A stretch of 24,448 nt of DNA from a virus. Where the stretch lies: positions 1-24,448 of IMG/VR virus record IMGVR_UViG_3300025543_000207; one strand, written 5' to 3'. The position numbers and the translations under genes are program-made. The notes under the pieces were generated by a model. The model did not search any database. It had not been told where the DNA came from and saw only the letters and a program-made list of their open reading frames with translations. How positions within the stretch are numbered: the first letter of the stretch is position 1; each line of letters starts with the position of its first letter. Of the stretch, positions 11,742-23,098 are shown piece by piece.

Positions 11742-13298
11742 ATGGGTTTAATAAACAAAACTGATAAACAGTATTACGATGGCAACGAGTTAGGTAGCTA
11801 TCAGTTCGTGTCACTAGACGACGTTATATCTCAATTTATGGCTGTTTATGTTGGAGATGAAAAAATAATAAATAAAGTAAGTAGATCTGACGTAAGCTTT
11901 TGGGCGCAACGTGCTTTAGCTGAACTTTCTTTTGATACTTTAAAATCTGTTAAGTCTCAACAAATTGAAATTCCACCAAGTTTAACAATGCGTCTTCCTA
12001 AAGACTACGTTAACTATACTCACTTAAGCTATGTAGACGAGTCTGGAATTAAACATCCTTTATATCCAACAAGAGATACGTCTAATCCTTTTCAAATACT
12101 TCAAGACGAAAATAAAGATTACGTTTATAATGAAGAAATATCTTCCGGGGTAAATTTAGACGATGCTAAAGGTTGGAACTTTACTGCTGAAGGAATGCAA
12201 GGTGTTAAAACTGGTGGAAAACTTACTTTTGGATCCGCCGCTAACACACTTAAAATAAGTCAAAGCCCTAGAAACAGACAAGTTGACAGTGTAGAAGGGT
12301 TTGTTGTTTCTGGTTATTACGAAATTGATGTTTCAATGTTTGAAGAAGCTCTTTTCTCAGCTTCAGCTTCAACAGTAAGCGGCGGCACTCAAACTATCAC
12401 GCAAGAAGACGTAGACAATTTAGCTTTAAATGGAACCAAAGTTCAAGGTGTAGTTCCTTATGTAAGTACAGCTGGAGACTACAGTACGCCAGCTACTACT
12501 ATTAGGGTTGGATTAAGTACTAGCATACCAGAAAATAATGTTAGAATGACAGAGTGGAGAGGGCAGACAGCCACTACCAACCTAGATCCTGATTATTTTG
12601 ATATTGGGTATCTTGAATGGTCCAACGGTGAGTCGGGTGAAAAAACTTTAAACACTAGCATTGACTTTACGCAAATACAAGGTAGTGTTTACTTAACCAT
12701 TATAGCCATCGCGCCATGGACTGATACTGATAGTCCAGTAGATACTTTAAGTCAAATACTAAAAGTAGAATCTACAGTGTCTAACATACTTATAGAATCT
12801 GCTAAATCAATAGGTTTGTTAGATCAAAGTTTAGTAGAAGAATCATCCACGTTTACAAACTATAAAAAAGCACGTTTAAGCGAAAAAGTAATAGATGACG
12901 ACTATATAGACGATACGTATTGGCCTAACGAAGGCGAGAGATATGGTACAGATCCAGTTAGAGCACAAGTAAATGGGTTTTTCTATATAGACGAAAGAAT
13001 AGGTAAAATAAACTTTAGCTCTAATATTTCTGGAAAAACTGTAATCTTAGACTACATAAGTGATAGTCTTGGAACTGATGAAGAAATGCAAGTGCATAAG
13101 TTTGCAGAAGAAGCTTTATACAAGTGGATAACCTATGGTGTTTTATCTACTAAGTCTAATATTCCTGAAATGATAGTAAGGCGCGCGAAAAAAGAAAAAT
13201 TTGCAGCTACTAGACAAGCTAAGTTAAGATTATCAAACATTAAATTAGGCGAGATGATCCAGTTATTAAGAGGAAAGTCTAAACAAATAAAACACTAA
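11742..13298 (+). CDS. Tail ring/tubular protein with a large central insertion
   Basis: A 518-residue protein with conserved ends. Residues about 50-130 hold SRSDVSFWAQRALAELSFDT, then VKSQQIEIPPSLTMRLPKDY and HPLYPTRDTSNPFQ. Residues about 360-518 hold VRAQVNGFFYIDERIGKINF, TVILDYISDSLGTDEEMQVH, then KFAEEALYKWITYGVLSTK and the ending RLSNIKLGEMIQLLRGKSKQ. These ends match tail ring/tubular proteins encoded before the muzzle in marine crAss-like phages (from memory). Between them, residues about 131-358 form a beta-rich region resembling carbohydrate-binding sandwich domains (GWNFTAEGMQGVKTGGKLTF near its start, LTIIAIAPW near its end). It lies 4 bases after the preceding ring gene and 3 bases before the muzzle, in one operon. 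Confidence 0.65.
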   Translation: MGLINKTDKQYYDGNELGSYQFVSLDDVISQFMAVYVGDEKIINKVSRSDVSFWAQRALAELSFDTLKSVKSQQIEIPPSLTMRLPKDYVNYTHLSYVDESGIKHPLYPTRDTSNPFQILQDENKDYVYNEEISSGVNLDDAKGWNFTAEGMQGVKTGGKLTFGSAANTLKISQSPRNRQVDSVEGFVVSGYYEIDVSMFEEALFSASASTVSGGTQTITQEDVDNLALNGTKVQGVVPYVSTAGDYSTPATTIRVGLSTSIPENNVRMTEWRGQTATTNLDPDYFDIGYLEWSNGESGEKTLNTSIDFTQIQGSVYLTIIAIAPWTDTDSPVDTLSQILKVESTVSNILIESAKSIGLLDQSLVEESSTFTNYKKARLSEKVIDDDYIDDTYWPNEGERYGTDPVRAQVNGFFYIDERIGKINFSSNISGKTVILDYISDSLGTDEEMQVHKFAEEALYKWITYGVLSTKSNIPEMIVRRAKKEKFAATRQAKLRLSNIKLGEMIQLLRGKSKQIKH

Positions 13299-13301
13299 TA
13301 A

Positions 13302-16300
13302 ATGGCGGAGATCAAAAACACTTTTAGTCAAGGTAAAATGAATAAAGACCTTGACGAAAGACTTATACCTAATGGACAATATAGAGACGCTTTAAACGTT
13401 GAAATAACTTCTGATGGCGAGTCTGCTGAAACAGGTAGTGCTGGCACAATATCTAATATAAAAGGAAATATACCTTTAGAGAATGTTGTGCCGAGCGATA
13501 AATGTGTTTGCGTAGGAAGTGTTGCTGATGAAAAAAATAATAAACTTTATTGGTTTATTAAATGTCAAGGATTCCCTCAGGTTGGAGACACAGCGTTTCC
13601 TAATAGAGATGCTATAATTGAATATGATACCGTATCAAAAGAATCTACTTTTCTTATTACTGATCTTAGAAGCACTTACACTAATAGCCTTGGAAGTACA
13701 GTTAAGCCTATATTAAATTTTTCTGGAAAAAAAATAACAGCAATAAGTATAATAGATCAATATTTAGTGTGGTCTGATGGCGAAACAGAGCCTAAAAAAA
13801 TAAATATTGAAAAAGCTAGAGAGGCTACGATTAAAGAAAACAAGGGTATAAATGGAAGAGGATCTATAAGTCATCATTCATATTTATATGTTGATGGCAT
13901 TGGCACTGGCCAGTATTTGCAAGAAGAAAATATAACTGTAATAAAAAAGAAGCCATTATCAGCGCCTAGATACAGCATTGTAAGCGCTAAAAATAAACAG
14001 TACGACCCAAATCTTAGCCCTATACTTCGTAAAGAGGCTATATTTGAAAAAATATTTCCTAGATTTTGTTTGCGATATAAGTACCAAGACGGAGAATATT
14101 CTGCTTTTGGTCCTTGGACAAATGTCATATTTAACCCTGAGTTTGTCGGCGACTATTCTGTAATAAACGCTTATACAGCAAAAGAGCCTTACAACGCCGC
14201 AATGGTTAACACTATAAGTAAAATAAACTTTTACGGTTTAGTTACTCCAGACATGCCTAAAGATGTTGTGCAAATAGATATTCTTTATAAGCAGGAAAAT
14301 TCTACCGTAGTTCATAATGTAGGTAGCATTAAAAACACGGATTCAGAGTGGTTTGAAGATGGCAACTGGTTTAAGTTAGAGGGCTTGGCGAATTACGACG
14401 CTTACAATCCTACAACAAAAGGTGTTTTTACTGTAGATACAGAAAATATACATGCTGCTTTACCTGAAAATCAATTTTTAAGAGTGTGGGATGCTGTTCC
14501 AAGAAAAGCTCAAGCACAAGAAGTGATTGGAAACAGGTTAGTTTTCGCTAATTATACAGAGGGCTATGATATGGTTTTCAACAACTCTGATTTTAAGCCA
14601 AAAGTTCTTGGATCTTTTGAGCCAAGACAAGTGGAAGCTGAAATTTTTAGAGATACTGGCGCTTTTGGAACATCATTTAATTTGAGCGTTCTTGAAGGTA
14701 CTTATGTGCAAACTTTAGAAACTTACGCGACGCCTGGCGTTGAAGAAGAAAATGATGCCGTAAGTTCTTATGTGTACGTTAATACTATAGATCCTTCTAG
14801 TCCATTATCGTATAGTTATGCTGGATATAGAGGAGCTGGTTTACCAACCTTAAAGTCTCAAAGAGATTACCAATTAGGTGTTGTTTTTGGGGACGAATAT
14901 GGTAGAGAAACTCCTGTGTTTACATCTGATTTAGCTACAATTAAAGTTCCTTGGGAAGGAACGTATGGTAAATCTGCTAGCACTTCTTTAAGCATAACGG
15001 CATCTTTAGGTAATACACCGCCTAGCTGGGCTAGCTACTACAAGTTTTATATAAAACAATCGTCAGGAGAATATCACAATATGGTTATGGATAAAATCTA
15101 TAGACCAGCTCTTAGTTATCCAGATGATGATAAAAATTTAGACCACGTTTGGGCTTCTTTCGCTTCTTCAGACAGAAATAAAGTTGAAGTTGGTGATTTT
15201 ATAACTATAAAGAAAATAGTAAACCAGCTCGCTACTCAAATAGAAAAAGAAAATAAATATAAAATACTGGACATTTCAAATGAAATGCCAGAATCTATAG
15301 CTTATGAGTATAATAATTTAGGTAATTTTGATAATGTTGGAGATTCTCTTACAGACGAAGAAACAGGCTCTAATAATCCTATATTTCCTAGTAATCCTGC
15401 GTCAAACGAAGATTCAAGAATAGATAGAATTACGGACACTATAGAAATAGACAAAATTAATTGGCTTAATAGAGGTGGATCTGCTTTAACTAAAGAAGCA
15501 ATAGACGACTATACGGAATTTAACCCAGATATTTACATATCTTGGAAAAGAAAAACCTCTAATGCTTCAGTTCATTCAAATAGATACAAAGTAACTAGCG
15601 TAACGTTTAAGAGTAATAAATATTTATTAAAACTATCTAGCTTTATTAAAGAAGAAGATGCTAAAATTGCGGCTAATAATAGTAGCGACTTAACTGTTGC
15701 TAGCGCTGTTTTAGGCGGTTCTTTAACCACAGATCTACTTACCTTTAGAGTAGAAAAAAAGCAAAAGAAGACTAAAGAATCTTTTGACGGGCGATTTTTT
15801 ATAAAAATAGCTTCAGATTATGTTTTACAAACTTATCTTCTTAGTGAGTTTTCTGAAACAAACACAGATTACTATATTGGAGGATCTCAAAAATTATTTT
15901 ATTTAGCTGACGAAGCGGTTACAGATTACAATGCTCAAAATGGTATTGTTAATTCTGAAAACTCTGGTGAAATAACAAGTTATCACGACGATGCTGATGT
16001 AAGTAGTCCTAGCGATATTCACTCTGGAGGTTCTTTAACAAATCTTAAATCAGAGTGGCAAAGCTTAATGGACGATCCAAATTTTGGTTGGAGAAAAACT
16101 GGCTCTTCTAGCGCTAGTGGTAATGGTGGCTTTTTTATTGACGCGATGTATTTTGCAGCTGTCAACAGTGATCAACAAAATTATTACGCAAAGTACTCAG
16201 GTCAAGGTTGGACTGGTAATCCAAGAACATATTATCCTGAAATAGAGTGGGGTAGAGTTATAGATTATAATACTAGTGATACCGACGCACCGGATCTTGA

Positions 16301-19300
16301 GTCACCATTTAATAATTGGCTAACCTTTATTCCACCTACTAGCTATGGTAGAGACTACAACGTTTCTGCAAAAAGAGTTAGGTATGGTTGGAGAAAAAAA
16401 GGCTCTGTTGATGCAGATATAAACAACTGGATAGAATCAACTAACGTAAGCGATTCTGGAGGATTTAGAAGAAAATATAGAAATTGGAATCATGGTAATT
16501 TTTCTACTTGGAAAGTTTTAGAAAGTACGCCTGATACGGTGGTGCAAGATAGAGAATCTGAAGTTAATGGATTTGAAGGAATATTAGAGCAAGCTAAACC
16601 TGTACACTACAACTCTCCTACTAACGGTGGATATAGAACTTTTTTAACAAATATATACGGGCAGCAACCTACTGGAAGAACTCAACCTAAAACAACGTAT
16701 ACAAGTAATTTAGCTGGTACGCAACCATCTTACATGCATTTTTCTTTTTTAGGACCAGGTTATGAAGGCTCTTTGTTTGATCCTAGTCAAGTTCCAACAA
16801 CGGTAGGTTTGTACGGTGAAAACGCTATAGGAAACTACTTGCAAGGAATATGGGGAGGTGGAGCTTTTACCAATGAAGCTGGAACTAACTTTGGCTTGTC
16901 AAACATAAGATTCGTAGAGATGGAAGGGTCACTTCATCTAGACCAAAAGCCTTACACTTCTGACGGCGTATTAAAGCCTACTGCTTTAGGCGATGCTAAT
17001 AGCGAAGAGCTTACAGCTCCATCGACTTTAGAAAGATCTATACCTCCTCACGAAAACGCACCTAACGTTTATTTTGGTTATAATAAAACTGATGGCAATG
17101 AAGCGCGTCACAAAAATCAATGGCTTCCAGGTGGAGATCCTAATGGTGATGCTAAAGATATATATAACTTCGTTCAGGCCAACATGGTTTCAGGTAAAAA
17201 GTTTAGATTTAAAAACGACGACAGTAAAGAAATTTATACTATATTAGACGTAGCTACTAGATATGTTTATAATCACACTCCTTGGAAAGCTAGAAAAATA
17301 TGGAATGGCACTGAGTACGTTTGGGGTAATGATAGCGTAGAAGAGGCTGTAGCTGCTTGGGCAGATACTGCTGATGCTGACGGAAACCCGGACAATAGCG
17401 GCAACGAGTTTGCGGCTATGTTACAAAGATTAGAAGACTTTGGGGATAGGTCAAATAGAAGAACTACTTACGTTTTAGCTTTAGACAAGCCAGTTCAAGG
17501 AAAAAGTTACAATCCTGTTTTAGGCGCAGATACTCAAGGTAGTCAAGTTTTACCAGACGCACAAGCTTTTTCAGATATAGAGTTTGTTTATGATAATCCT
17601 ATGGTTTTAACTGGAGAGGTATTAAAAGATCCAGCTGTATGGGAAACTGAACCTAAAAATAACGATGAGCTTGACGTTTACTACGAGGCGTCTAACGCTA
17701 TACCCACAAAGCTTAATAAAAATAATCTTGATTTATTCGCTCCACAAGGAACCAGAATAGAGTTTCCAAACATGGACAATAATGTTATAAAACATGATTA
17801 CGATGTTTACTTACGTAGGTGGAATGGCCCAATGTCAAGTTACAATGACGAGGTTATACAACTAGAAGTAAGAGCTTTAAGTGGTGGTGACACAGGTTTT
17901 AAGTGGTTTTCTGGAGATACTAATATTGATTATGGTAATCAAGAAGTTAGGTTTTACAGACAAGACGGTAGCTATACTACAGCTACAACAGCTAACGTGC
18001 AGATAGAGCAATTCTACATAGACAGTAACAACATGACCAATGGGGATGGTGATTATTGGAAAGCTAAAAACACAGCCGCGTATATATTTATAAAAAATAT
18101 TATAGACCCTACAAAACAAGTTGGATTAAATTGGTTTAACGCTTTTACCTTTACAGATGGTGTTGAATCTAATAGAATTAGAGACGACTTCAACGAAATG
18201 ACAATATCTAACGGCGCTAGAGTTTCTACCACGCTAGACGAGCCTTATAAAGAAGAAGTAAAGAAAAATAGTTTAATATACTCAGGAATATACAACTCTA
18301 ACTCTAAGCAGAATAGTTTAAATGAGTTTATCACTGCAGAAAAAATAACTAAAGACTTAAATCCTACTTATGGTAGTATTCAAAAGCTGTTTACTAGAAA
18401 TTCAGACTTAATTGCTTTTTGCGAAGACAGGGTGGTTAAAATATTAGGTAACAAAGACGCTTTATACAACGCTGATGGTAATCCTCAGTTAATAGCTTCA
18501 AATAGAGTTCTTGGCCAAGCAACACCTTTTGTTGGTGATTTTGGTATATCTAAAAACCCAGAGTCTTTTGCTAAAGATTCTTATAGGGCTTACTTTGCAG
18601 ACAAGCAAAGAGGAGCTGTATTAAGACTTTCTATGGACGGCTTAACACCTATATCAGAAGCTGGCATGGGAGACTGGTTTAAAGACGAGCTTACTGTTAA
18701 TGGCGTAAATATTATAGGAAGTTTTGATGACGACGCTAGAGAGTACAATTTAACTATAAAAGAGATTATACAGGATAATAAAATACAAAATAATACTTTT
18801 GATTATGGATCTGAATCGTCTTTGGTTAATATTGTAAATCAAGAAATATGTAGAAACCCTAATATGTCTGGTGGTGCAGAATATACACCAGTAGATCTTG
18901 CCAACGACATATACTATGGTGGTCCTGGTGCTGATTCTAGCCTAGGTGTTAGTTTAGGCTTTAAAATATACCCTAAAGCTCCTATTAGAAATAGATCTAT
19001 AGGTTATACATCTATAGTTAGAAACTGGCCGGCTATACCGCAAGGATCTATAAGATCAGCAGCGGCTGGTGTTGATCCAATACCAAGTTCAGATATACCC
19101 GCTTGGGCTGAAGTTATTCACGAGGTTGCGGGTACAGACGTGTGGAGTATTACCTCTGGCACTGGAAATAGATTTTATAAAGGTGAGCAGGTTTTAGGTG
19201 TTATGAACCCAGGTCAATGGGAGACTAGCGTTGATAATAATGGAAACACGGTTGAGTGGTATAATTTCGTTCAAGGCAACGATCTTATAGTAAATCCAAT

Positions 19301-21503
19301 TTATGACAACGCTGTTGAAGGCGAAAACTCTTATACTGGCTTAACGCCAACAACATACATAACCACACCAAGTGGAAGTGCTTTACAGCCTTTCAATCAA
19401 TACACTGAAGCTAGTACTGTTAATGGCGTAATTCCCGCTGATAATAATAGAGGAGTTCTTATTCAAAACAATGGAACTGCTGAAGGTAGTTTTTACTTTC
19501 AGCAAGCGTTAAATAATAACAGCAAATATGTTGTTGGTAATTGGTATTGCGTTGACGTGTATTTAGATTCTAGTTATTCTAATAATGCTCTAAACAATCT
19601 TTTAATACCTGGTGTATTAGGAGCGGGCAGCGGTTTAGATAGCGCTTATGGAACAGATCATACGCAAAATAACCCTGGCTATCCACCATATCACTTTGGA
19701 AAAATTGGTGGATCAGCTACAGCTGGATTTAACAAGTCTATAGTGTTAATGCCTGTAACAAATAACGAGTGGCCTCTTGGAAGTGGACAAGAAGTTTATA
19801 GAGCTATATTTCAATACAACGCCCCTGAAGATGTTCAAGCAGCACAAGGTCAAAACTTTATATTACAAGCTTGGAACGCAGACTGTTTAGTTAATCTTAT
19901 AATGCTTTACGACATAACAGAGCAAGCTACCATGACTAAACCTACAAACTGGAATGTTATAGATGACGCTTGGGTTAGTGAGCATGCTATGCATGAATTT
20001 ATTACGGCGCAAACTAATTATAACCTTGAGCCAGAGTGTTACTTTAGACATAATATGCTCTGCTGGAATACGCAAAGAGCTAGCCATGTTTATTGGAGAG
20101 ACGGTCATTATAGTGGTTCTGGTCTATTAGATTCAACAGAAGAATCTTACAGCGGATATTTACTTAACTTTACTATAGAAAATAATCCAGACTTTGATAC
20201 CTTTGAAGGAAAACTAAGAATTAGAGTTACAAACAGATGGGACGATCAAAATAACTCTTTAGACGGGGCGTACATTAGAAATATAGATATTCCTGGCGAT
20301 TATTCTATATTAATGAATTTTAACTCTGTAGATCCAACTATAATATCAGCGCCTGAAGGCTCTGAAGTTTACGGCGTAGCATTTGCTAATCAAAATGATT
20401 ATAGTCAAACTGAAGGACATAGAAGTAACATAACAATATTTCCAGAAAACGGTGGGTGTACAGGATCTTTAAGTAGTATATCTTTAATTGACGCTACACA
20501 ATATTACGAAGGTGGAGGTGTTGATTCTTGGGCTATAACAGGTTATGATAGATCAGCGTTTGACTATATATCTTGGAATGAAGAAAACTTAAACTTAGTA
20601 TTTAACCAGGCGCCAATAACTCAGCAAGACATAAACACAGGCGTAGAATCTAAAGTTCAGGTAGAGCAAAGGGTTGGTAATATTGAGTCAAACTCTAATG
20701 TTACGCTTGGCTTTAGTTTAACTGAATTAACTGGATCAATTAAAGTTTATTATTACAACAGCTTTAATAAAGGTTTTTCTTTGGTATTTGACAGCAGTGG
20801 TGTTGTTTCCACAAATGTTTTATTAAATCAAGATAGACCTGGAGACGCTTTAATAAACACTTTAGTCATTAGTGCTAACGAAGATAATACTAGCTGTGCT
20901 ATAGATGATATAGTTTTATTTAAAAGAGCTGACCAAGGATTTAAACCAAAGACGGTGAGCTATAGCGAAGAAGTTAAAGGTTGGACTAGTTTAAAATCTT
21001 TTCATCCAGAAAGTGGTTTAAGTGTTGCTAGACAATACTACACAATTAATAATGGTGAATTATGGCAGCACCACGCAAATGAAGTTAGAAATAACTTTTA
21101 TGGAAACCAATACGACAGCCATGTTACTTTTGTTATGAACTCTGAGCCTTCTACAGTTAAAAACTTTAGAGCATTTAGTTATGAAGGAACGCAGGCTAAA
21201 GTACACGAGTCCCAACAACAACTTTTAGGGCAAGACGAAAACGGTAATAATGTTTACGCTAGCTCTGCAGATAATTACAACTATAGCTCTAAGCAAGGTT
21301 GGTTTGCTGAAGATATACACACAGACATTCAACATGGCTCTATAAAAGAGTTTATCAAAAAAGAAGGTAAGTGGTTTAATAATATAAAAGGAAAAAACAC
21401 TGGCGATTCTGTAACTATTGAAGAAGTAGGATCTTTTAGTTTTCAAGGCTTAGGTTTTGTTAGCTCTATAGAGCCTTCTGTCGATATTGCACCTGTGGAA
21501 TAA
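13302..21503 (+). CDS. Giant muzzle/tail-nozzle protein, crAss-like, with inserted beta-sandwich domains
   Basis: A 2733-residue protein that fills a third of the window. N-terminal KMNKDLDERLIPNGQYRDAL (12-31) is the signature of crAss-like muzzle (older name 'stabilisation') proteins, which form the tail barrel below the ring proteins and gate DNA exit. Further conserved blocks are WETEPKNNDELDVYYEASNA (from 1447), the core NSLNEFITAEKITKDLNPTY (from 1671) through ADKQRGAVLRLSMDGLTPIS (from 1766) and DDDAREYNLTI (to 1819), and the C-terminal SYSEEVKGWTSLKSFHPESG (from 2553) with YEGTQAKVH. The last two blocks are normally nearly adjacent; here about 730 residues of beta-rich domains lie between them. 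The insertion includes three carbohydrate-binding-like units (about 2030-2220, 2247-2400 and 2407-2545). No signal peptide or coiled coil is seen. Base use does not change visibly at the insertion. Confidence 0.8.
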   Translation: MAEIKNTFSQGKMNKDLDERLIPNGQYRDALNVEITSDGESAETGSAGTISNIKGNIPLENVVPSDKCVCVGSVADEKNNKLYWFIKCQGFPQVGDTAFPNRDAIIEYDTVSKESTFLITDLRSTYTNSLGSTVKPILNFSGKKITAISIIDQYLVWSDGETEPKKINIEKAREATIKENKGINGRGSISHHSYLYVDGIGTGQYLQEENITVIKKKPLSAPRYSIVSAKNKQYDPNLSPILRKEAIFEKIFPRFCLRYKYQDGEYSAFGPWTNVIFNPEFVGDYSVINAYTAKEPYNAAMVNTISKINFYGLVTPDMPKDVVQIDILYKQENSTVVHNVGSIKNTDSEWFEDGNWFKLEGLANYDAYNPTTKGVFTVDTENIHAALPENQFLRVWDAVPRKAQAQEVIGNRLVFANYTEGYDMVFNNSDFKPKVLGSFEPRQVEAEIFRDTGAFGTSFNLSVLEGTYVQTLETYATPGVEEENDAVSSYVYVNTIDPSSPLSYSYAGYRGAGLPTLKSQRDYQLGVVFGDEYGRETPVFTSDLATIKVPWEGTYGKSASTSLSITASLGNTPPSWASYYKFYIKQSSGEYHNMVMDKIYRPALSYPDDDKNLDHVWASFASSDRNKVEVGDFITIKKIVNQLATQIEKENKYKILDISNEMPESIAYEYNNLGNFDNVGDSLTDEETGSNNPIFPSNPASNEDSRIDRITDTIEIDKINWLNRGGSALTKEAIDDYTEFNPDIYISWKRKTSNASVHSNRYKVTSVTFKSNKYLLKLSSFIKEEDAKIAANNSSDLTVASAVLGGSLTTDLLTFRVEKKQKKTKESFDGRFFIKIASDYVLQTYLLSEFSETNTDYYIGGSQKLFYLADEAVTDYNAQNGIVNSENSGEITSYHDDADVSSPSDIHSGGSLTNLKSEWQSLMDDPNFGWRKTGSSSASGNGGFFIDAMYFAAVNSDQQNYYAKYSGQGWTGNPRTYYPEIEWGRVIDYNTSDTDAPDLESPFNNWLTFIPPTSYGRDYNVSAKRVRYGWRKKGSVDADINNWIESTNVSDSGGFRRKYRNWNHGNFSTWKVLESTPDTVVQDRESEVNGFEGILEQAKPVHYNSPTNGGYRTFLTNIYGQQPTGRTQPKTTYTSNLAGTQPSYMHFSFLGPGYEGSLFDPSQVPTTVGLYGENAIGNYLQGIWGGGAFTNEAGTNFGLSNIRFVEMEGSLHLDQKPYTSDGVLKPTALGDANSEELTAPSTLERSIPPHENAPNVYFGYNKTDGNEARHKNQWLPGGDPNGDAKDIYNFVQANMVSGKKFRFKNDDSKEIYTILDVATRYVYNHTPWKARKIWNGTEYVWGNDSVEEAVAAWADTADADGNPDNSGNEFAAMLQRLEDFGDRSNRRTTYVLALDKPVQGKSYNPVLGADTQGSQVLPDAQAFSDIEFVYDNPMVLTGEVLKDPAVWETEPKNNDELDVYYEASNAIPTKLNKNNLDLFAPQGTRIEFPNMDNNVIKHDYDVYLRRWNGPMSSYNDEVIQLEVRALSGGDTGFKWFSGDTNIDYGNQEVRFYRQDGSYTTATTANVQIEQFYIDSNNMTNGDGDYWKAKNTAAYIFIKNIIDPTKQVGLNWFNAFTFTDGVESNRIRDDFNEMTISNGARVSTTLDEPYKEEVKKNSLIYSGIYNSNSKQNSLNEFITAEKITKDLNPTYGSIQKLFTRNSDLIAFCEDRVVKILGNKDALYNADGNPQLIASNRVLGQATPFVGDFGISKNPESFAKDSYRAYFADKQRGAVLRLSMDGLTPISEAGMGDWFKDELTVNGVNIIGSFDDDAREYNLTIKEIIQDNKIQNNTFDYGSESSLVNIVNQEICRNPNMSGGAEYTPVDLANDIYYGGPGADSSLGVSLGFKIYPKAPIRNRSIGYTSIVRNWPAIPQGSIRSAAAGVDPIPSSDIPAWAEVIHEVAGTDVWSITSGTGNRFYKGEQVLGVMNPGQWETSVDNNGNTVEWYNFVQGNDLIVNPIYDNAVEGENSYTGLTPTTYITTPSGSALQPFNQYTEASTVNGVIPADNNRGVLIQNNGTAEGSFYFQQALNNNSKYVVGNWYCVDVYLDSSYSNNALNNLLIPGVLGAGSGLDSAYGTDHTQNNPGYPPYHFGKIGGSATAGFNKSIVLMPVTNNEWPLGSGQEVYRAIFQYNAPEDVQAAQGQNFILQAWNADCLVNLIMLYDITEQATMTKPTNWNVIDDAWVSEHAMHEFITAQTNYNLEPECYFRHNMLCWNTQRASHVYWRDGHYSGSGLLDSTEESYSGYLLNFTIENNPDFDTFEGKLRIRVTNRWDDQNNSLDGAYIRNIDIPGDYSILMNFNSVDPTIISAPEGSEVYGVAFANQNDYSQTEGHRSNITIFPENGGCTGSLSSISLIDATQYYEGGGVDSWAITGYDRSAFDYISWNEENLNLVFNQAPITQQDINTGVESKVQVEQRVGNIESNSNVTLGFSLTELTGSIKVYYYNSFNKGFSLVFDSSGVVSTNVLLNQDRPGDALINTLVISANEDNTSCAIDDIVLFKRADQGFKPKTVSYSEEVKGWTSLKSFHPESGLSVARQYYTINNGELWQHHANEVRNNFYGNQYDSHVTFVMNSEPSTVKNFRAFSYEGTQAKVHESQQQLLGQDENGNNVYASSADNYNYSSKQGWFAEDIHTDIQHGSIKEFIKKEGKWFNNIKGKNTGDSVTIEEVGSFSFQGLGFVSSIEPSVDIAPVE

Positions 21504-21521: not shown

Positions 21522-22754
21522 ATGGCTTTAATAAACGAAATGGAAATAAATACTGACGCTATACCATCTACTGGTAGCACTAGGTATTTTAAAGTGACGG
21601 GTGATGACGGCGCTAAGTTTATGATTCAAGTCGTAACTTCTGAAGGTGTTTTTTATAACTTTGTTACAAAAAAATTTACTGCTGAAGAAGGATTTAATTC
21701 TAACCACAATCAAATAGTGACATTAAGCGGTGAATACAATTCATCTATACATTTCCCAAGCAACGCTACAACCACATACAGCATTTTACTTATAACAAAT
21801 GGATTTGATACTACTATAAGAAATAATACTAGAAAAGTTAGTGTCAAGAAAATAACACAAAGTAGTCAAACAACGGTTACACTTGCTTTTTCAACAGACA
21901 ACACAGATAAATACAACTCAACGCCAGCTGCCGCCAGTGTATTATCAAGTGGCACGCCAGGTGTGTTTTCAAACGTTGAGGTAACAAACGCGAGCACTGT
22001 AACCAATGCTGATAACGATACTCATGGAAGTGGATTCACACCATTAAGGTTTGATAGAGATGGAGTGATAACGTTTAGTGGTGATAGTATATGGTATTAT
22101 CAAAAAACAGCAGTAGTAAGCAGTGATAGTTCTAGCACTATATTAAGTTTAGATACTGTAGAGGGAATAGCTGTAGGGTCAGAAATAACTTATGTTACAG
22201 GAACTACGCCACCTGATTTTACAACTGTTGTTAAAGCAATAGATACAACCTCTAATACATTAACGTTGTCTAGAGCACAAGCATTTACTAGCGGTAATAC
22301 TGTTACTATAAGATCTTATGGATCATCTTTAATAAATCAAACTAGTGGTGCAAACTTTAAATTTGGTAGTGTTAACGGTGTTGTGAGTAAACTTACATAT
22401 TTAGGGTATACAACAAGGGGCATAACAGACGGTAGCAATACTATAAACTTAAACGGATCAAGAGGTTTAGGTAAAGGCGCTCAAATAGCCGCGTCAGGCT
22501 TAAACAGATCAAACTCTGGAGATACAATAAGGTCAGTGGTGCTTAGTGAAAACGAAGGAAGTATCGTCGTTGGTGACGGTGACGCTGGAACTACTGGTGA
22601 CTTGCAGTATCTATCAGATAACATTAAGATTACTACAAATTCTATTAATAGTTTAGATATAAATTATTTTTTAACCATAGTTTCATATCCTTCGTCAGAC
22701 GTAACAATAAATCTTAATTTAGATAAAATATTAATACCTCAAGCTATATCATGA
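21522..22754 (+). CDS. Beta-rich virion-associated protein, possibly tail or fibre-related
   Basis: A 410-residue Ser/Thr/Asn/Gly-rich protein with regular short strands (YFKVTGDDGAKFMIQVVTSE, TTYSILLITNGFDTTIR, SSSTILSLDTVEGIAVGSEI). The segment TVEGIAVGSEITYVTGTTPP, then VKAIDTTSNTLTLSRAQAF is the small beta-barrel repeat seen in tail and baseplate-associated proteins of marine phages. No membrane segments or catalytic motifs are visible. It begins 18 bases after the muzzle stop and overlaps the next gene by 4 bases (ATGA), so the two are probably made together. A surface or tail appendage role is inferred. The exact function is not recognised. Confidence 0.6.
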   Translation: MALINEMEINTDAIPSTGSTRYFKVTGDDGAKFMIQVVTSEGVFYNFVTKKFTAEEGFNSNHNQIVTLSGEYNSSIHFPSNATTTYSILLITNGFDTTIRNNTRKVSVKKITQSSQTTVTLAFSTDNTDKYNSTPAAASVLSSGTPGVFSNVEVTNASTVTNADNDTHGSGFTPLRFDRDGVITFSGDSIWYYQKTAVVSSDSSSTILSLDTVEGIAVGSEITYVTGTTPPDFTTVVKAIDTTSNTLTLSRAQAFTSGNTVTIRSYGSSLINQTSGANFKFGSVNGVVSKLTYLGYTTRGITDGSNTINLNGSRGLGKGAQIAASGLNRSNSGDTIRSVVLSENEGSIVVGDGDAGTTGDLQYLSDNIKITTNSINSLDINYFLTIVSYPSSDVTINLNLDKILIPQAIS

Positions 22755-23098
22755 TAATAAACATTTCTTCAGAAATACAAAATAGTTCTATAGCTGTTGG
22801 CGATGTAGTTTACGCTTCATCGGTTAGCACTATAAAAAACGGTTTACAATACTATGGTCAAGATGGTTCCACACCTAATAGAGTTGGAAAAATAACATCT
22901 ATAGGCTCTAATTTTATAGAAGTGCAAGACGAGTCTTTAGTGCCAGCTGAAGGAGATTTTTTAATGTTTTCAAAAGACAACTCTGTAAACGAGTCTAGTT
23001 TAAAAGGGTATTACGCTAGTATAACAATGAAAAATGATTCAACAGATAGAGTAGAGCTTTTTGCTGTTAATGCTGTAGTTCATGAAAGTAGTAAATAG
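22751..23098 (+). CDS. Small virion protein, 'GYYASITMKN ... ELFAVNAVVHESSK' type
   Basis: A 115-residue protein. The N-terminal 70 residues form a small beta barrel (VGDVVYASSVSTIKNG, VGKITSIGSNFIEVQ), like the repeat in the preceding protein. The C-terminus KGYYASITMKNDSTDRVELF followed by AVNAVVHESSK is a widespread ending in marine phage structural proteins of both podo- and myoviruses (recognised from memory). Its role is unknown; a small tail or baseplate-like subunit is likely. The start overlaps the previous stop as ATGA, showing translational coupling. Confidence 0.65.
   Translation: MIINISSEIQNSSIAVGDVVYASSVSTIKNGLQYYGQDGSTPNRVGKITSIGSNFIEVQDESLVPAEGDFLMFSKDNSVNESSLKGYYASITMKNDSTDRVELFAVNAVVHESSK

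Follow-up and report, generated by a model that had tools for sequence, protein, structure and literature searches.

The window analysed here is the whole stretch of 24,448 nucleotides of an IMG/VR virus record (IMGVR_UViG_3300025543_000207, positions 1 to 24,448). Its gene order, as read from PHROG matches, is terminase, portal, capsid, ring/adaptor proteins and muzzle, as in phages with a crAss-type muzzle. Because the cultured relatives infect Flavobacteriaceae and related contigs were mostly found in Bacteroidota MAGs, the host is likely to be a marine member of the Bacteroidota. The features considered below are as follows.

11742..13298, + strand: ring protein with an insert of its own of about 240 aa (about residues 130-370 = 12129-12851); PHROG 13977 (273 positions) matched in two stretches, cultured homologues 269-307 aa
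13302..21503, + strand: muzzle/nozzle protein of 2733 aa, interrupted by the insert at residues 1820-2550; PHROG 14478, PF25729 crAss_MUZ_C and a profile match to crAss001 gp44
18708..18758, + strand: last conserved strands before the insert (IIGSFDDDAREYNLTI), placed from the sequence and its alignment to gp44 and to relatives lacking the insert; taken by eye as strands A and B of propeller blade 6
18759..20951, + strand: inserted module array, residues 1820-2550 (731 aa); 3-35 aa or absent in 33 relatives, 730-1440 aa in 35
18759..19454, + strand: N-terminal stretch of the insert (residues 1820-2051), poorly folded in the AlphaFold2 model (mostly low pLDDT, few strands)
19058..19079, + strand: junction at which L001 and L003, the nearest relatives, have an additional module of ~371 aa (protein alignment; blastn, window 19057/19080 versus L001 10055/11191)
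19455..19913, + strand: predicted beta-sandwich 1 (M3), residues 2052-2204 (AlphaFold2 secondary structure, pLDDT)
20037..20492, + strand: predicted beta-sandwich 2 (M4), residues 2246-2397 (AlphaFold2); homologous to M5
20532..20924, + strand: predicted beta-sandwich 3 (M5), residues 2411-2541 (AlphaFold2, pLDDT mostly 75-94); profile link to a CBM_4_9 module of L004
20952..21503, + strand: conserved C-terminal block, the remaining propeller strands and C-terminal domain (PF25729, PHROG 18548 and 38031); a separate gene in phi46:3 and ctfjg026
22751..23098, + strand: terminal domain of the muzzle as a separate gene, homologous to the C-termini of the phi38:1 and elemoD muzzles and of phi46:3 gp112

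An insert at one exact point of the muzzle

The core of the muzzle ORF matched PHROG 14478 (virion structural protein) with an E-value of 1.4e-122, and residues 2595-2696 passed the cut-off for PF25729 (30.1 bits against 27). Comparisons made with insert-free relatives of the window protein showed that the propeller half is homologous to crAss001 gp44 (hhalign E 1.8e-6, 89.8%; hmmsearch 1.2e-7), and by analogy with gp44 the muzzle would be a hexamer. A model of the insert-free propeller half reached a pLDDT of only 38.1, and the propeller blades were read from sequence only.

The earlier note held that a segment of about 730 residues splits two conserved blocks of the muzzle, and its placement agreed with ours. 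In ORF 13302-21503 the motif DDDAREYNLTI starts at residue 1809 and SYSEEVKGWTSLKSF at residue 2553, and the segment between the blocks comprises 731 residues (1820-2550 = 18759-20951). To compare this region in other phages we searched with the muzzle core, which returned 80 IMG/VR loci with cores 60-90% identical. Core and C-terminal block were placed by blastp, giving 75 scoreable muzzles (74 relatives and the window). The distance between the blocks was 3-35 residues in 33 of these (3-5 residues in 12 of the 33), about 145-300 residues (145-298) in seven, and about 730-1440 residues (731-1443) in 35, the window included. Insert-free, short-insert and long-insert muzzles therefore coexist among relatives whose cores are 60-92% identical. 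The site was likewise contiguous, without a comparable insert, in the four cultured relatives checked: Calle, phi38:1 and Gundel (Pachyviridae, Pervagoviridae) and Flavobacterium phage elemoD.

These data confirm that the muzzle is interrupted at residues 1820-2550 by an insert that is absent from many relatives. The contrary outcome named in the earlier note, a segment belonging to the barrel fold in every close relative, was not observed. Chance or a compositional artefact was rejected as the origin of the gap, the insert being polymorphic at one exact point. The previously claimed richness in Gly, Asn, Trp and Tyr was slight for the first three when the insert was compared to the rest of the muzzle (G 8.9 versus 7.5%, N 10.5 versus 8.3%, W 2.1 versus 1.8%) and absent for Tyr (5.5 versus 5.5%). 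The clear compositional bias of the insert is a paucity of lysine, 2.2% as compared to 6.1% in the rest of the muzzle.

The alignment with relatives places the gap exactly at the predicted point. By profile comparison the site maps near residue 1197 of gp44, between DVYFTYK and DHCLCYSE, which in a parse by eye is the hairpin between the second and third strands (B-C) of blade 6. In the shortest muzzles just 3-5 residues join these two strands (for example EYNLTLNLNTISYDEKVKGW in L049), and the insertion site is therefore a tight hairpin.

In two further phages, Cellulophaga phage phi46:3 (L088) and ctfjg026 (L090), the muzzle gene is broken exactly at the insertion site, with other domains added before the break. 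The core in phi46:3 gp111 can be followed to YVLSTEDEDLTV, after which come ~490 other residues, and the next gene, gp112, opens with MPKTITYSEKNKGWTSF, the muzzle C-terminal block. The C-terminal block of ctfjg026 is again a gene of its own (MEHTLSYDDGVKGWTSF), two ORFs on. Since the insert-free muzzles, the long-insert muzzles and these two splits share the point, a single hairpin is contiguous, filled or broken in related phages. The position of IG1 below the propeller of crAss001 had at first seemed to require a B-C loop facing the host. This argument was dropped: the propellers of T7 stand with their planes radial (PMC6702177), and the direction of the loop therefore cannot be read from sequence.

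Breaks of other kinds were also seen. In L047 (4818-10494) a split close to the muzzle N-terminus leaves two adjoining ORFs of 612 and 1281 aa, and L048 and L061 have the same short second ORF. The muzzle of Maribacter phage Panino (L085, 5448-9361) is annotated as two ORFs with the break inside the core, possibly a frameshift or an intron-like interruption.

Folds, relationships and history of the inserted modules

The insert alignment has 742 residues, with the window first and 31 relatives at about 19-28% identity except L001 and L003 (72-74%). AlphaFold2 modelled the insert as all-beta with three separate beta-sandwiches, at moderate confidence (mean pLDDT 68.7, pTM 0.47). The two units offered in the earlier note as examples of jelly rolls (residues 2051-2198 and 2405-2541) coincide with predicted sandwiches M3 (2052-2204) and M5 (2411-2541), and the third sandwich lies between them. 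In a Foldseek comparison with the PDB, single modules were matched to CBM16 (2zew_A, probability 1.00, TM 0.54 of target, E 3.6e-3) and CBM4 (1gui_A, probability 1.00, TM 0.51 of target). Foldseek also returned the tandem CBM22 4xup and Bacteroides surface glycan-binding protein B (7kwb_B, E 2.2e-4). The top ranks were multi-domain jelly-roll proteins, and whole-array superpositions had an rmsd of about 15 Å or more, so that only the single-module matches are informative. At the level of fold, the expectation of separate CBM-like jelly rolls was thus borne out, the modules being predicted by a model of moderate confidence to have a CBM-type jelly-roll fold.

Profile comparisons link the modules to one another and to a known family. 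The hhalign score between M4 and M5 (98.0%, E 2.8e-13) identifies them as repeats of a single family, and M5 aligns with a module of L004 (hhalign 96.1%, E 3.5e-9) that itself passes Pfam CBM_4_9 (PF02018; 1.1e-7, 32.8 bits versus a cut-off of 25.9). By profile, at least two of the window modules are therefore CBM_4_9-like. M3, unlike M4 and M5, had no profile link to a CBM_4_9 module. The window insert itself gave no Pfam match even at E 1, no significant Pfam or PHROG family, no significant PDB-sequence match and, when 50,697 phage records were searched by tblastn, no match there either; no Pfam or PHROG family was convincing among the 31 aligned relatives. Because the curated CBM_4_9 cut-off was tried and not reached, we call the window modules CBM-like and not members of a CBM family.

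The insert is maintained by purifying selection and evolves faster than the core. Among the window, L001 and L003, dN/dS was mostly 0.13-0.29 for the insert versus 0.06-0.09 for the core, values that are approximate as synonymous sites are near saturation. The window and L001 are collinear, with 77-81% identity in DNA, and the absence from the window of the ~371-aa module at 19058-19079 is probably a natural module deletion; an assembly error in the window is possible. On a quick tree of the core and C-terminal block, with modest branch support, two changes suffice to explain the long insert, most plausibly a single gain followed by a loss, the loss falling in the L004/L011/L016/L021 group.

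C-terminal muzzle extensions of 400-1500 aa are frequent in insert-free or short-insert relatives (L063, L070, L055, L034, L045, L074). The relatives' extensions had no match to the insert modules, and two of them hold fn3 domains. Large inserts and C-terminal extensions rarely occur together (1/34 versus 26/38, Fisher p 2.8e-9); we do not claim that they are mutually exclusive, as the tree holds just one or two independent contrasts.

The habit of inserting modules is wider than the muzzle, as the ring protein also carries an insert. Across the 80 loci the corresponding gap in the ring protein ranged from 8 to 459 residues, and the cultured homologues are without an insert. Ring-protein inserts of relatives matched the M5 profile; whole alignments gave nothing by hhalign, while the single inserts of L046 and L053 aligned with M5 at 92% and 90%. 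It is likely that some, not all, of the ring-protein inserts are related to M5. An M5-like module is carried by an upstream ORF in L046, L053 and the MAG-derived L097, this ORF being the ring protein in L046 and L053. In L004, which has no muzzle insert, CBM_4_9-like modules (Pfam 1.1e-7) interrupt the terminal-domain protein (L004:11335-12498). Most relatives, like the window, encode the terminal domain as a separate gene; phi38:1, elemoD, L066, L067 and L077 have it fused to the muzzle, and phi46:3 gp112 has it fused to the C-terminal block.

Two other ORFs of the window, 578-1396 and 21522-22754, are possible receptor-binding or fibre genes. The earlier proposal that the array is displayed from the barrel rather than from a separate fibre goes beyond the data in this respect: the contig is a fragment, and these candidates are present on it. 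ORF 578-1396 (272 aa) ends in MHLYELGVYNIALTEAQVREI and has a LamG/concanavalin-type look by eye; it had no Pfam match.

Possible roles of the array

The explanation that we favor, and consider probable, is an "evolved muzzle": a CBM-like jelly-roll array on the tail tip that helps adsorption and works like an evolved Dit. It builds on the exact insertion point, the insert-free relatives, the modular make-up and the purifying selection, together with the predicted jelly-roll folds. Tandem CBM-like jelly rolls would have been inserted in frame into a late propeller blade, at its tight B-C hairpin (the sequence parse makes it blade 6), and in a hexameric muzzle six copies of the array would stand out from the tail tip. 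By our reasoning, the channel has no steric room for six copies of 730-1440 residues, so that a location within it is excluded. The arrays may recognise envelope or capsule glycans of the host, or the matrix around the cell, which would raise the chance of productive adsorption, and gain, loss and exchange of modules at this hairpin and in other loops could tune host range. That binding also helps to open the gate is speculation. The earlier reading, a receptor- or glycan-binding array on the tail barrel with the gate sensing the host surface, is in this way partly supported. Against adsorption by glycan binding stand the lack of a significant Pfam or PHROG family in the window insert and the moderate quality of the model (pLDDT 68.7, pTM 0.47). 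Moreover, some jelly rolls have a purely structural role or act as docks for fibres.

One alternative, which we regard as rather unlikely, is that the inserted jelly rolls are architectural, bracing the tail tip or forming sockets for separate fibres, and bind no sugar. The fibre docks of the T7 nozzle and adaptor are jelly-roll barrels (PMC6702177), the ring protein adjoining the muzzle has an insert too, and ORFs 21522-22754 and 578-1396 may be fibre genes nearby. However, many relatives and the cultured phages checked have a muzzle without any insert here, and one would expect less variation in a docking part than in this segment, whose length runs from 145 to 1440 aa and whose identity drops to about 25% where that of the core remains above 60%.

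A second possibility goes beyond adsorption: the plug would be its own receptor sensor, glycan binding by the six arrays parting the propellers and opening the channel, in a lineage that trades CBM-like modules among the loops of its tail (the ring protein, the muzzle hairpin, the muzzle C-terminus and the separate terminal-domain protein). Channel opening comes into question because, provided that the blade numbering agrees, the insert lies in the blade that supplies T7 with its tightest gate. In T7 the gate in question is a loop of blade 6 (PMC6702177), and in crAss001 the tightest gate lies in blade 4 (PMC10172136); with gates in different blades, coupling to the gate is speculative, and we consider this combined proposal unlikely.

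It is very unlikely that the insert is tolerated cargo, held in a loop that accepts any domains and kept by drift and recombination with little function. Such a view could accommodate a point that, from phage to phage, reads through, holds an insert or separates two genes, and a window without a whole ~371-aa module that its nearest relatives carry. On the other hand, the dN/dS of the insert (mostly 0.13-0.29) indicates purifying selection, 35 of the 75 scoreable muzzles retain the array with few places of change in the tree (two changes), and 730 to 1440 residues in six copies are costly. Least credible is an enzyme in the array, a polysaccharide-degrading or deacetylating module in place of binders alone: longer Foldseek matches include glycosidases (GH101; the matched region in them was not reported) and an ORF annotated as a putative glycosidase lies at the split point in ctfjg026, but no catalytic family matched at significance in any of the 32 members, and each fold in the model is a small sandwich, about 130-150 residues long.

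Comparison with known tail proteins

Taken with adsorption as the preferred role, the data suggest that this lineage builds cell-surface binders into the plug of its own tail. The natural series at one defined hairpin comprises no insert, one short insert, long arrays and a gene split, and how the muzzle gate is told to open therefore becomes testable. The hairpin also marks a loop that accepts foreign domains without breaking the propeller.

Among the closest known proteins is crAss001 gp44 (PMC10172136), whose C-terminal half is homologous, its core and C-terminal block aligning across the insertion site. Bayfield et al. (2023) described muzzle length variation through insertions in the crass and IG2 domains and proposed that the distal crass domain touches the cell (PMC10172136). 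Length variation of muzzles by insertion was thus already known; what had not been described is where this insertion lies, that its modules are CBM-like, the complete natural series, and the form with a split gene. Unlike the insertions of Bayfield et al., which lie in the crass and IG2 domains, the insert described here occupies another loop, the hairpin at about gp44 residue 1197, and consists of predicted CBM-like jelly rolls and not of the crass fold.

The T7 nozzle gp12 (PMC6702177), likened here by architecture, is a hexamer with a seven-bladed propeller, in which a blade-3 loop leads to the tip domain and a blade-6 loop forms the tightest gate. PMC6702177 describes no comparable insert in the blade-6 loop. 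The BACON-domain arrays of crAssphage (PMC6949934) are similar in that they consist of beta-sandwiches repeated in tandem, are associated with the tail and have been proposed as binders of the host surface, but they are encoded by tail-associated genes of their own and not inside the muzzle, and have an Ig-like fold and not that of a CBM jelly roll.

A functional parallel comes from lactococcal 936 phages. CBM insertions in their Dit promote adsorption (PMC10688798), and CBMs are found in neck and tail proteins of lactococcal phages (PMC6669499). As in those phages, CBM-like modules lie in a loop of a conserved tail protein, related phages have classical insert-free versions, and several kinds of module occur at several virion sites; the flanks of the window's insert can be aligned with insert-free homologues, as for an evolved Dit. 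In contrast, the lactococcal carriers are the Dit and major tail protein of siphophages with Gram-positive hosts, whereas the carrier here is the propeller-based plug of a podovirus-like Bacteroidota phage, which is a muzzle and not a Dit and can only work like one. The window array is also much larger, and its binding is predicted while that of the 936 phages has been demonstrated. If the prediction is right, the principle of the evolved Dit, CBMs grafted onto a conserved tail protein, would extend to the tail plug of crAss-related marine Bacteroidota phages.
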